A DNA stretch of 53,520 nucleotides from Candidatus Cryptobacteroides caccocaballi. Its GTDB lineage: Bacteria; Bacteroidota; Bacteroidia; Bacteroidales; UBA932. The stretch spans positions 1 through 53,520 of the forward strand of contig JAGHUQ010000004.1 of NCBI GenBank assembly GCA_018064725.1. Direction: 5' to 3'. The position numbers and the translations under genes were made by a program. This document shows, in pieces, positions 45,836-51,311 of this stretch. The notes under the pieces are model-generated. The model was given only the letters and a program-made list of their open reading frames with translations, was not told where the DNA came from and did no database searches. How positions within the stretch are numbered: the first letter of the stretch is position 1; each line of letters opens with the position of its first letter.

Positions 45836-46036
45836 ATGGCAAAGAAGATTTATCGCATTCCCGAAGGTAAGATGATTGCCGGAGTATGCACCGGTATTGC
45901 TGACTATTTTGATATCGACCCTACTATCGTAAGACTTGCATGGCTCGTTGCATTCTTCTGTGCAGGAGCAGGCTTCTTCGCATACCTTATCGCAGCCATC
46001 ATCATCCCCGCACGTCCGGACATCTACATTCAATAA
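45836..46036 (+). CDS. PspC-domain small membrane protein
   Basis: MAKKIYRIPEGKMIAGVCTGIADYFDIDPTIVRLAWLVAFFCAGAGFFAYLIAAIIIPARP. Confidence 0.9.
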   Translation: MAKKIYRIPEGKMIAGVCTGIADYFDIDPTIVRLAWLVAFFCAGAGFFAYLIAAIIIPARPDIYIQ

Positions 46037-46051
46037 CCTTCCGCCCAGTCA

Positions 46052-46564
46052 ATGACGGTCCCAAAGGCAACCACGATGAACAGCGAACAGGAATTTGCGC
46101 GAATAGTCAAGGATCACAAGAGCACGATCTACACGGTCTGCTACATGTTCTCCAAGGACTCGGAGGAGGTCAACGACCTCTTCCAGGACATCCTCATCAA
46201 CATGTGGAAGGGATTCGGCTCATTCCGTGGAGAGTCCAGCGTTGACACCTGGATCTGGAGGATAAGTCTCAACACCTGCATCTCAGCAGAGAGAAAGAAG
46301 AAAAAGGCAGGTGAGAAAGTCCCTCTGACCATGGGAATAGACCTCTTCACGGACCAGGACGAAGGATCGAAGCAGGTCCAGAAACTCCACGAGAGGATTC
46401 ACAAGCTCGATGTGATCGACAGAGCCATCGTTCTCCTCTGGCTTGAGGATATCAGCTATGAGGAAATCGGCGCCATCGTCGGCATCAGCGCAAAGAACGT
46501 AGGAGTAAAGCTGTTCAGAATCAGAGAGCAGCTCAAGTCAATGTCAACCAACAACGAAGATTAA
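46052..46564 (+). CDS. ECF-type sigma-70 family RNA polymerase sigma factor (start more likely at 46076)
   Basis: DSEEVNDLFQDILINMWKGFGSFRGESSVDTWIWRISLNTCISAERKKKK, then region 4 LDVIDRAIVLLWLEDISYEEIGAIVGISAKNVGVKLFRIREQL. Confidence 0.9.
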   Translation: MTVPKATTMNSEQEFARIVKDHKSTIYTVCYMFSKDSEEVNDLFQDILINMWKGFGSFRGESSVDTWIWRISLNTCISAERKKKKAGEKVPLTMGIDLFTDQDEGSKQVQKLHERIHKLDVIDRAIVLLWLEDISYEEIGAIVGISAKNVGVKLFRIREQLKSMSTNNED

Positions 46565-46569
46565 TCAGA

Positions 46570-47160
46570 ATGGAAAACAATATATCAGACATCGAACTTC
46601 AGGACATGCGCGAGCAGATCGCAGCCCTCAAGGCAAAACTGTCAAACGAGGAAATCGTAAATGAAAAACTGCTCCGTAACGCGACCAAGTCCAGAATGAT
46701 GGAGATCCAGAAGAAAGGCCTCCTCAGCATACTGATCGGCATCTTCGCGATTCCTTATACCGCATGGGCCTTCAGCAACATCGGCCTCAGCTGGTATTTC
46801 GTAGGAGCGACCATCGCCATGCTCATCTTCTGCACCGCATGTACGGCCGTGATGCACCACAGGGTAAATTCCAACACCGCCAGCACAGGAAGCCTCTTCG
46901 AGTGCGCAAAGCAGATCAAGAAACTCAAGAAGGAGTATCTCGACTGGTTCAAGATCGCAATCCCTATGATCTGCTTCTGGATTGCCTGGCTTTGTACAGA
47001 GGTGATAATAAAAACCCCCGACATGGCCTATGCATTGGCACTTGTCGGAGGTATGATTTTCGGCGGATGTATCGGCGGTTTCATCGGTTACAGCATGCAC
47101 CGCAAGGTGATCAACACCTGCGACGACATCCTTGCATCCCTCGGTGAAACCGACGAATAG
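46570..47160 (+). CDS. Uncharacterised multi-TM membrane protein, candidate partner or anti-sigma of the adjacent ECF sigma factor
   Basis: Starts 5 nt after the sigma stop. N-terminal coiled-coil-like segment (DMREQIAALKAKLSNEEIVNEKLL), then about four hydrophobic segments. Confidence 0.6.
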   Translation: MENNISDIELQDMREQIAALKAKLSNEEIVNEKLLRNATKSRMMEIQKKGLLSILIGIFAIPYTAWAFSNIGLSWYFVGATIAMLIFCTACTAVMHHRVNSNTASTGSLFECAKQIKKLKKEYLDWFKIAIPMICFWIAWLCTEVIIKTPDMAYALALVGGMIFGGCIGGFIGYSMHRKVINTCDDILASLGETDE

Positions 47161-47989: not shown

Positions 47990-48081
47990 GCACTATTATT
48001 AATAATTACCTTGTAATATCGTACAATTGGATAACAATTCTATCCTATTGCCACCTTTTTGCTCACGATTCACCACAGACG

Positions 48082-48112
48082 GAGGAAGCCGGCCCGCTGG
48101 GTCGGCTTCCTC
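48082..48112 (-). terminator. Hairpin downstream of small protein A (candidate terminator, weak U-tract)
   Basis: 14-bp stem GAGGAAGCCGGCCC-gct-GGGTCGGCTTCCTC with one G-T wobble. Confidence 0.6.
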
Positions 48113-48133
48113 ATGTTCCGCAGTCACAGGACT

Positions 48134-48331
48134 TTAGTCGATCATGTCCTTGTAGTGGTTCACGAGTTCCTTGACGCTCTCCTCGTCAGAGATGTCGAAC
48201 TTGGCCATAGACCTTGACTTTGAGTTGGCGCGGTCGCCTACGCTGTTGATGCGTGAAGATGATACGTAGTCATAGACTCTGAATGCTGCTGCGAGAACGA
48301 TAACTGCTGCGATGATGATGATTGCTTTCAT
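48134..48331 (-). CDS. 65-aa single-TM small protein A
   Basis: MKAIIIIAAVIVLAAAFRVYDYVSSSRINSVGDRANSKSRSMAKFDISDEESVKELVNHYKDMID; gap-free paralogue of 50842..51039; own -7 box. Confidence 0.8.
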   Translation of the reverse strand: MKAIIIIAAVIVLAAAFRVYDYVSSSRINSVGDRANSKSRSMAKFDISDEESVKELVNHYKDMID

Positions 48332-48401
48332 GTTTTTGATGTTTTGTTATATAGTTGAACTTGATTGGTTGTTCCGTATTGTCTGTCGTTGTCTGACGGT
48401 G

Positions 48402-48459
48402 CAAAGGTATGGCTGTTCCGAGGGCTGGGAAATCATTGGCAACTCTTTGTTTCGATACC
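48402..48459 (-). promoter_or_regulatory. Promoter of small protein A: -7 box TACCTTTG plus conserved upstream motif
   Basis: Plus-strand CAAAGGTA (48402-48409), 36 nt, TTTGTTTC (48446-48453), inside TTGGCAACTCTTTGTTTCGATACC (48436-48459). Confidence 0.6.
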
Positions 48460-48521
48460 CCCTATAGACAAAAAATGGCAGGGAGTCACCCTGCCATCGT
48501 CACGACCAATCACGACTATCG

Positions 48522-49934
48522 TCACATCATGAGCAGCACCATCATCTGAGCAGCCAGCACACGCAGAAACATTGCCAGCGGATAGACGGTCGCATAGCCA
48601 ACTGCGGCCTCGTCGCTGTTCTTGTCCTGTTCGCCGGCAAATGCCAGCGCAGGTGGGTTGGTGCTCGAACCGGCAAGCACACCGATGAGAGTATTGTATC
48701 TTATTTTCATGACCACCTTTCCGAGGAACCCGCAGAAGAGAAGCGGAAGGATGGTGATCATTGCTCCATATGCGATCCATATGTATCCGCCCTTGTTCAC
48801 AATGGTATCCACGAAACCGTTTCCGGCCTCCAGTCCCACGCATGCAAGGAAGAGGGAGATTCCTATCTCACGTATCATCAGGTTCGCTCCGTTGGTCGTA
48901 TAGGTCACGACCTTGAGACGCGGTCCGAAACAGCTGATCAGAATCGACACGATGAGAGGACCGCCGGCAAGGCCGAGTTTCACCGGCTGAGGGATGCCGG
49001 GGAAATGGAAAGGAATCATTCCCAAAGCGCATCCCAGTGCTATGCCCGCAAAAATCGAGATAAGGTTGGGGCTGTCAAGTTTCTTCAGAGAGTTTCCCAG
49101 CACCTTGGTCATAGCGTCCACTGCAGGCTCACTGCCTACTACAGAGACTATGTCCCCGAGCTGTATCACGGTCTCAGGCTTGGCAGATATCTCTATGCCG
49201 GCGCGGCGTATCGTGGTGATGCTGACACCAAGGTATTTTTCAAACTCCAGCTTTGCGAGACTCTTTCCATTGATTTTCCTCTTTGAAACAATGATCTCCT
49301 TTTGAACCATCTTGGCGCCTTCTGTCTGTTCCACGAGTTCCTTGCTCTCCGTTGTCATTGACTCTGTTTTCTTGACCAGAGGTGCCTCGTTACGGTAGAA
49401 TATGGCCTTGAGGAGAATGAACGAGAGTATGCAGCCGACAACACCGAGAGGATAGGCAACGGCGTAACCCAATGCAATAGTCGGGGAGCCTGAGCCGACT
49501 GCGTCCGTGTACGCCTGCTGGGCAGCTCCAAGACCGGGAGTGTTGGTGACGGCACCGGACATCACGCCCACCATGGTGGGTGGATCTATTCCTGTAAGTT
49601 TTGTAATGATGACTGTCACGCCGACTCCGGTAAGGACAACAAGCGCTGCCAGCAGATTTAGTTTGACTCCACCAGCACGGAAACTGGAGAAAAAGCTCGG
49701 TCCGACCTGCATACCGATGGAATACACAAACATGATGAGTCCGAATTCCTTCATGAAATGTAATATCTGCGGATCGAGGTTGAATCCGAAATGTGAGAAC
49801 ACGATACCCACGAACAGTATCCACGTCACCCCGAGAGAAATACCGAAGAGTTTATACCCTCCGAGTAGTTTTCCCAGCGCAATCACTGCACTGAGGACAA
49901 TTATTGATAATCCAATTGACATTATTTCAACCAT
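48522..49934 (-). CDS. AspT/YidE/YbjL-type transporter with central TrkA-C-like domain
   Basis: Repeated membrane halves; MVGVMSGAVTNTPGLGAAQQAY and LIGVLAGSSTNPPALAFAGEQ; central ISAKPETVIQLGDIVSVVGSEPAVDAM. Internal ATG at 49922 overlaps the LysR stop (TAATG). Confidence 0.88.
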   Translation of the reverse strand: MVEIMSIGLSIIVLSAVIALGKLLGGYKLFGISLGVTWILFVGIVFSHFGFNLDPQILHFMKEFGLIMFVYSIGMQVGPSFFSSFRAGGVKLNLLAALVVLTGVGVTVIITKLTGIDPPTMVGVMSGAVTNTPGLGAAQQAYTDAVGSGSPTIALGYAVAYPLGVVGCILSFILLKAIFYRNEAPLVKKTESMTTESKELVEQTEGAKMVQKEIIVSKRKINGKSLAKLEFEKYLGVSITTIRRAGIEISAKPETVIQLGDIVSVVGSEPAVDAMTKVLGNSLKKLDSPNLISIFAGIALGCALGMIPFHFPGIPQPVKLGLAGGPLIVSILISCFGPRLKVVTYTTNGANLMIREIGISLFLACVGLEAGNGFVDTIVNKGGYIWIAYGAMITILPLLFCGFLGKVVMKIRYNTLIGVLAGSSTNPPALAFAGEQDKNSDEAAVGYATVYPLAMFLRVLAAQMMVLLMM

Positions 49935-50827
49935 TTATTAGCCCTGGCCATCACAGCACTGGACTGAGTTAGAATCTTGATGAACTCTTCCGCCGCTCTC
50001 TTGCGGTATGCCTTCTTCAAGGCATGTATACAGCCCTCCATCTTCGTGCCCGGAGAATTGAGAGGTATCGCTGTAAGTCCGTCTGACTGATAGAGCGCAG
50101 CCTCAGAGAGAAAAGTGATCATATGGTTTTCCCTTACCAGATCCAGCAGAATGCTGACAGACGTTATCTCAAGCTGCGTATTGAGCTTCTGGTCCGCTCC
50201 TGGAAAACAACGGTCGAAGGCATTCCTAGCCTGTGTCTCCTTGTCCGGCAGCGCAATCCTCTGCCCCATCAGGTCCTCAATGCTGAGGATGTCTCTATCC
50301 GCAAGAGGATGGTCTTCCTTCATGATCGCACACAACTGGTCATCGAACAGCTGATGTGACTCGATTTCCGGATCCAGTACCATAGGCGTGAAACTCAACA
50401 CGAAGTCAAGTTCCGATCGCTTCAGCTTATCGAGAAGATTCTCCATGTTTCGGCAGAAAACATTGAGTTTCACGCCACGATACTGTCTTGTAAATTCCCT
50501 GACAGCCTCCGATAATATAGGCGCGAATGAGTACGTGATACCTATATTCAGTTCACCGGAGAGCATTTCCTTGAGATCATTGATCTTCGTAAAGCACGAG
50601 TCCGCATCCTGAAGTGTCCTCTTTGCACTAGGATACAGATGTTTTCCACATTCGGTCAGACTTACGCTGTGACTGTCCCTTTGGAACAACTCCACTCCCA
50701 GTTCCTCCTCGAGCTGCCGGATCTGCTGGGAGAGAGTGCTCTGCGTGATGAAAAGCTGCCGTGACGCCTCGGAAAAATTAAGGGTTTCCGCCGTCTTGAC
50801 AAAATACCTAAGCTGCCTCAGTTCCAT
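49922..50827 (-). CDS. LysR-family transcriptional regulator
   Basis: MELRQLRYFVKTAETLNFSEASRQLFITQSTLSQQIRQLEEELGVELFQRDSHSVSLTECG. Confidence 0.95.
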   Translation of the reverse strand: MELRQLRYFVKTAETLNFSEASRQLFITQSTLSQQIRQLEEELGVELFQRDSHSVSLTECGKHLYPSAKRTLQDADSCFTKINDLKEMLSGELNIGITYSFAPILSEAVREFTRQYRGVKLNVFCRNMENLLDKLKRSELDFVLSFTPMVLDPEIESHQLFDDQLCAIMKEDHPLADRDILSIEDLMGQRIALPDKETQARNAFDRCFPGADQKLNTQLEITSVSILLDLVRENHMITFLSEAALYQSDGLTAIPLNSPGTKMEGCIHALKKAYRKRAAEEFIKILTQSSAVMARANKWLK

Positions 50828-50841
50828 CTTGATTCCATGTT

Positions 50842-51039
50842 TTAGTCATCTAGATCCTTATAATGCGCGAGGGCCTGTTTGATTGACTCCGGATCATTGA
50901 GATCTATGGTGGCAACGGTCTTGGACTTCCTGTTTGCCCTGGCTCCCACACTTTTCATCGGCTTACTTGTCAATACCTCAAGGACTCTGAGGACAAATGC
51001 GAGTATGATACACGCGAAAATGATAATGATTGCTTTCAT
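50842..51039 (-). CDS. 65-aa single-TM small protein B (paralogue of small protein A)
   Basis: MKAIIIIFACIILAFVLRVLEVLTSKPMKSVGARANRKSKTVATIDLNDPESIKQALAHYKDLDD; same length as protein A, about half the residues identical; 14-nt gap to lysR. Confidence 0.82.
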   Translation of the reverse strand: MKAIIIIFACIILAFVLRVLEVLTSKPMKSVGARANRKSKTVATIDLNDPESIKQALAHYKDLDD

Positions 51040-51106
51040 GATATATTATAATATTGTTATTGCCTTATGACTGGTCAACGTTACAGGGTGTCAAAATCTG
51101 ACAGCG

Positions 51107-51164
51107 CAAAGGTATATCTGTCAAAACAATCAAAAGAGACTTGGTAAGTGTTTGTTTCTATAGC
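51107..51164 (-). promoter_or_regulatory. Promoter of small protein B-lysR-transporter: -7 box TACCTTTG plus conserved upstream motif
   Basis: Plus-strand CAAAGGTA (51107-51114), 36 nt, TTTGTTTC (51151-51158), inside TTGGTAAGTGTTTGTTTCTATAGC (51141-51164). Confidence 0.6.
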
Positions 51165-51311
51165 AACTATCGTCAAACACAATAACAACCGGGTGCATCT
51201 ATTGCAGAATACGATAGCTGACTGATTCAAGCCACCTGTAGCCGCTATCGGAAAAAATGAATCAAGGCATGAAAAATCCGGCAGAATCGAACGGACATTG
51301 ACATAAATGAG

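Follow-up and report, generated by a model that had tools for sequence, protein, structure and literature searches.

Single-span small proteins and a fixed-spacing operator-like motif at a lysR-aspT module of Candidatus Cryptobacteroides

The window analysed here is the whole 53,520-nucleotide stretch of contig JAGHUQ010000004.1 of Candidatus Cryptobacteroides caccocaballi. It carries two paralogous genes for 65-aa single-span proteins, smA and smB, on either side of genes for a LysR-type regulator and an AspT/YidE-family transporter. An operator-like motif at the same spacing from the promoter precedes both small genes, and small genes of this kind accompany lysR and aspT in all 22 genus modules that could be judged. 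Judged from sequence comparison, the small protein, which has a single span and occurs in a group of rumen-type Bacteroidales, probably acts as a so far undescribed exporter helper.

The small genes, their neighbours and their transcription units

The initial annotation had reported two 65-aa reading frames on the minus strand and the gene order smB, lysR, transporter gene, smA; coordinates and order held (Table 1). Its estimate by eye of about 33 identical residues was exact, with 33/65 in an ungapped alignment (BLASTP, E=7e-16), and the shared blocks MKAIIII, RV, SVGxRANxKS and HYKDxxD are present in both proteins. The gap between smB and lysR is 14 nt, and lysR and aspT overlap by 13 nt. 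Because aspT is followed by an intrinsic terminator and then by a separate operator and promoter for smA, we read smA as lying outside the predicted smB-lysR-aspT operon, which corrects the earlier reading.

Table 1. Features of the module in window coordinates.
Feature	Position	Strand	Description
smA	48134..48331	(-)	65-aa single-TM smB paralogue; own transcription unit
smB	50842..51039	(-)	65-aa single-TM small protein; gene 1 of smB-lysR-aspT operon
lysR	49922..50827	(-)	LysR-type transcriptional regulator, 301 aa; Pfam HTH_1 and LysR_substrate both matched
aspT	48522..49934	(-)	AspT/YidE (AAEx, TC 2.A.81) family transporter, 470 aa; Pfam, NCBIfam, PDB
Operator-like motif and -7 box of smB operon	51104..51176	(-)	65.2 bits; box TATACCTTTGC
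Operator-like motif and -7 box of smA	48399..48471	(-)	54.5 bits; 26-nt spacing as for smB
Intrinsic terminator between aspT and smA	48474..48498	(-)	-18 kcal/mol, z -4.6
Strong hairpin 3' of smA, probable terminator	48070..48122	(-)	-28.6 kcal/mol, z -4.1

The nearest relative of smA is the small gene of G377 (66% identity), and that of smB, by identity, is the small gene of G241. These nearest relatives speak against a recent tandem duplication as the origin of the pair, but a single clade of smA and smB is not rejected (AU p 0.216). Both branches are longer than those of most neighbours in the tree. Elsewhere in the window, at 45836-47160 on the plus strand, genes for a small PspC-like protein, a sigma-factor-like protein and a membrane protein were seen by eye in a row.

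Neither small protein has a Pfam or NCBIfam match above the curated cut-offs, a significant PHROGs match or a relative in the PDB. By sequence, no homologues outside the genus were found among 150 genomes drawn from the family, and none in plasmids or viral contigs; a wider genome-contig search gave a single match, on a contig that agrees with the G371 contig in length and in what it matches. In every genus member, residues 3-17 or so are hydrophobic and are followed by K/R, and by the positive-inside rule the tail is predicted to lie in the cytoplasm. Tyr stands at position -6 in 24/24 complete genus proteins, and the last residue is Asp in 23 of them and Glu in one. The SVGxRAN block is absent from some members, and tail length is dispensable. 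The small genes show amino-acid-level constraint, with pN/pS of 0.17-0.49 in close pairs. AF2 models of three sequences give a helix at residues 2-23 (pLDDT about 80-85) and low confidence elsewhere. A short single-TM protein encoded with a transporter has the form of a small transporter subunit, and the initial annotation's idea of membrane subunits or sensors that would serve the transporter is plausible.

The transporter belongs to the AAEx family, with two Asp-Al_Ex repeats (PF06826, two stretches, 1.3e-84), and has one TrkA_C domain (Pfam, 6e-9). It scores 577 bits against the NCBIfam YidE model PRK03818 (putative transporter; cut-off 449) and falls below the cut-offs of both NCBIfam aspartate-alanine antiporter models; AspT relatives are found in the PDB. 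AspT-family proteins of about 390-400 aa that lack the TrkA_C region are encoded at L052 5624-6733, L053 9031-10140 and L121 4847-6058. The window genome also has a second LysR of the same lineage (G000:C30:6511-7386, 46% identical). The gene beside it has a TonB-receptor-like start, and neither AspT nor a small gene was seen there.

An operator-like motif at fixed distance from the small-gene promoters

The motif upstream of the small genes spans about 36 bp, with a consensus of about GCGATWGCYGYTATAGAAACAAACACGAACCAA (the ATAG-GAAACAAAC motif). In 23/25 small-gene promoters its end lies exactly 26 nt upstream of a Bacteroidetes -7 box, TAnnTTTGC; the two exceptions are G307, which has no box of this form, and G179, which the simple consensus misaligned by 6 nt. 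From the -7 box to the ATG the distance varies between 32 and 130 nt. The smA and smB promoters are alike and ungapped from operator to -7 box, a likeness that the initial annotation does not mention.

With a matrix trained without the window genome, the smB and smA sites are the best two in the window, and the next scores -1.7 bits. The 4-Mb null had a maximum of 4.7 bits and zero matches reaching the smA score. Genome-wide counts came from a search with a composite pattern (3 mismatches allowed), not from the matrix: across the whole window genome it returned smB with 0 mismatches, smA with 1 and one weak site with 3. Across the order, operator matches were mostly background, and sites free of mismatches were limited to that of smB and one in G634. 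A sigma-70 style promoter scan was discarded as unsuited to Bacteroidetes. The earlier proposal of a duplicated LysR target thus has good support as a prediction, from the operator common to smA and smB, its strict spacing and its near-uniqueness in the genome. Because of the linkage, we infer that LysR is the protein bound to the motif. In six genus loci (L034, L037, L038, L043, L044 and L045) a second operator-like site, weaker at 17-26 bits and accompanied by a -7 box of its own, lies between small gene and lysR, immediately ahead of the latter; it suggests autoregulation in this sub-clade.

Run over the modules of G345, G471 and G319, the matrix found strong sites just behind aspT, which score 34.5-42.1 bits when its training omits the window sites. 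Each is followed by a 50-aa ORF (e.g. MYALYIIAFVAVAALAYRFSETLKARRAVVHAENETKLEKALDKYREIDD) that the homology search had missed, and the three products end in ALDKYREIDD, ALDKYRELDD and ALEKYKDYDD. The fixed operator geometry is thus a motif that finds small proteins missed by homology search, here in three genomes. At a fixed hydrophobicity threshold, a small TM ORF follows 26/30 operator sites versus 2/129 other TAnnTTTGC sites, a control that is partly circular since most of the 30 sites were found through the small gene. Among six sites outside training and window, two pass the threshold; the other four fall below it, yet a short ORF with a hydrophobic N-terminus is present at each.

Occurrence in the genus and in other families

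Small-protein homologues (E below 1e-4) were found in about fifteen of 400 genus genomes besides the window genome, and a search from the transporter side gave aspT loci in 23 of the 400. One module, that of G383, ends at a contig edge and was excluded, which left 22 to be judged. The small gene is contiguous with and ahead of lysR in 17/22; in G447 and G485 it lies on a separate contig, and if contiguity is assumed there it stands at the operon head in 19/22. The remaining three (G345, G471 and G319) have no small gene ahead of lysR and carry the short TM ORF behind aspT, in the position of smA. Both positions are filled only in the window genome. The two flanking copies, which the initial annotation took for a retained layout, are therefore not general: 1/23 modules has both, and the others have one copy, mostly upstream and downstream in three. 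The scattering of homologues through the genome that the same annotation had named as a counter-indication was looked for, and clear homologues lie at lysR-aspT modules or at contig ends consistent with them.

On contigs that are long enough, the small gene immediately precedes lysR and aspT; the type represented by G485 and G179 is the exception. In these two genomes (loci L105 and L107, respectively) the small gene is separated from lysR by a gene for a lipoprotein of ~200 aa, and lysR seems to have acquired a promoter for itself; in G485 the contig breaks lie close to a transposase-like gene. None of the window neighbours proC, GH43 and HAD turned up at the other loci. When AspT was searched for throughout the order with a strict cut-off, a single locus was added, and its flank, as far as read, had neither a related lysR nor a small gene.

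Four other Bacteroidales families, represented by G598, G634, G791 and G801, have a related LysR, an operator-type site (27.4, 29.1, 33.4 and a weak 12.5 bits, respectively) and a short hydrophobic ORF. The ORF has 39 aa in G598, 40 aa in G634, 57 or 73 aa in G791, depending on the start codon, and 22 aa in G801 (read by eye); the C-terminal motif ALxxYxxLxD is absent from all. An AspT gene follows lysR in G598 and G801; none was found in the 12 kb read in G634 or within the stretch read in G791. In G634 a fumarase gene adjoins the 40-aa ORF, with an apparent terminator and promoter of its own. More distant LysR relatives lie directly behind pairs of ThrE (DUF1212) and ThrE_2 genes (L055-L057, L062, L063, L067, L068 and L073), two of which were confirmed by Pfam and which we take to be exporters of the yjjPB type; the operator motif was not seen in the DNA read at these loci.

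Possible roles of the small protein and comparison with known systems

At roughly even chances, we favour a reading in which the small protein, besides being the main target of LysR, would serve the AAEx exporter as an accessory or regulatory membrane peptide; the exporter would probably carry C4-dicarboxylates. LysR, acting locally and probably as a co-inducer-dependent activator, would turn on the small-gene promoter, whose first product is a membrane protein of 46-66 aa and whose transcript would also encode LysR itself and the AspT-family exporter. The small protein would insert via its N-terminal helix and leave a cytoplasmic tail ending in the conserved ALxxYxxLxD-COOH helix, and this tail may bind the exporter or its RCK-like TrkA_C domain and so stabilise or tune it. 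In the window genome, smA with its own copy of operator and promoter would supply extra small protein in response to the same signal.

Fermenting Bacteroidales excrete succinate. ThrE-type genes could also serve threonine or serine export, which counts against a firm C4-dicarboxylate assignment. By analogy, the substrate of the exporter is most likely a C4-dicarboxylate such as succinate, or aspartate, because SucE1, which exports succinate, is an AAEx member (PMC9527358), ThrE/ThrE_2 pairs stand beside the distant LysR relatives, and fumarase is a neighbour in G634. In E. coli, yjjPB is a succinate transporter (PMC7236211).

The strongest case for placing the small protein in the LysR regulon, and not with AspT itself, comes from G634, where an operator stands before a 40-aa ORF without AspT. 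This layout bears on a rather unlikely alternative, in which the small protein acts on LysR, tethering or titrating it or reporting membrane or flux state to it as regulon feedback. The tie to LysR and the operator is indeed wider than the tie to AspT: in G634 and G791 the related LysR gene is divergent to an operator site and a short TM ORF, with AspT not nearby, and the weaker second site before lysR in several genus modules suggests autoregulation. However, no DNA-binding or LysR-binding part is recognisable in the small protein, the ALxxYxxLxD tail has been seen in the AspT-bearing genus alone, and LysR regulators normally sense small ligands in solution. We give a similarly low probability to a LysR-regulated membrane peptide with some other target, such as fumarate reductase or other respiratory enzymes, or envelope stress, with the exporter merely co-regulated. 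The fumarase neighbour in G634 and the independent transcription of smA and the downstream copies, as predicted from terminator and promoters, would fit it, but the small gene is present in 22/22 judged genus modules with AspT although their surroundings differ.

It is very improbable that the small ORFs are leaders or spacers rather than proteins, or that smA is a decaying relic. The long branches of smA and smB relative to most neighbours, and the sufficiency of a single copy elsewhere, would agree with decay, whereas the amino-acid constraint, the invariant C-terminus and the intact ORF, promoter, operator and hairpin of smA argue against it. A bolder extension of the favoured helper role, which we consider improbable, would make the small protein the central target of a single LysR lineage in several Bacteroidales families, as well as the first regulatory subunit dedicated to AAEx exporters, its C-terminal Asp/Glu gating C4-dicarboxylate export. 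The small protein would then be rapidly evolving, and its invariant last residue, a dicarboxylate in its own right, might dock at the substrate site or close to it.

The module brings together a candidate exporter, the regulator and operator that would control it, and a putative accessory peptide not described before, and is compact enough for direct genetics. Our literature searches returned nothing on AspT/YidE with LysR in Bacteroides or on small membrane proteins with LysR and no description of a small subunit of AAEx transporters; a full-text search that paired Bacteroides with a described succinate exporter was likewise empty. By Pfam and NCBIfam the window transporter falls within the AAEx family (AspT, SucE1, YidE), and it differs in its singly matched TrkA_C domain; AspT is described as a homodimer (PMC9527358). 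The closest likeness in form is to AcrZ-AcrB and KdpF, where a single-TM protein of about 30-65 aa is likewise co-encoded with a transporter or acts on one; AcrZ binds the membrane domain of AcrB and alters its activity (PMC7267776). Unlike these, to which no sequence relation was found for smA or smB, smB is encoded ahead of lysR and has a conserved soluble tail, and its putative partner is an AAEx-family exporter. As in LysR systems with an adjacent activated operon, the operator lies just upstream of the neighbouring operon's promoter, and some genomes have a weaker second site before lysR; here, however, lysR is inside the operon under its putative control, with a tiny membrane protein as the conserved first target.
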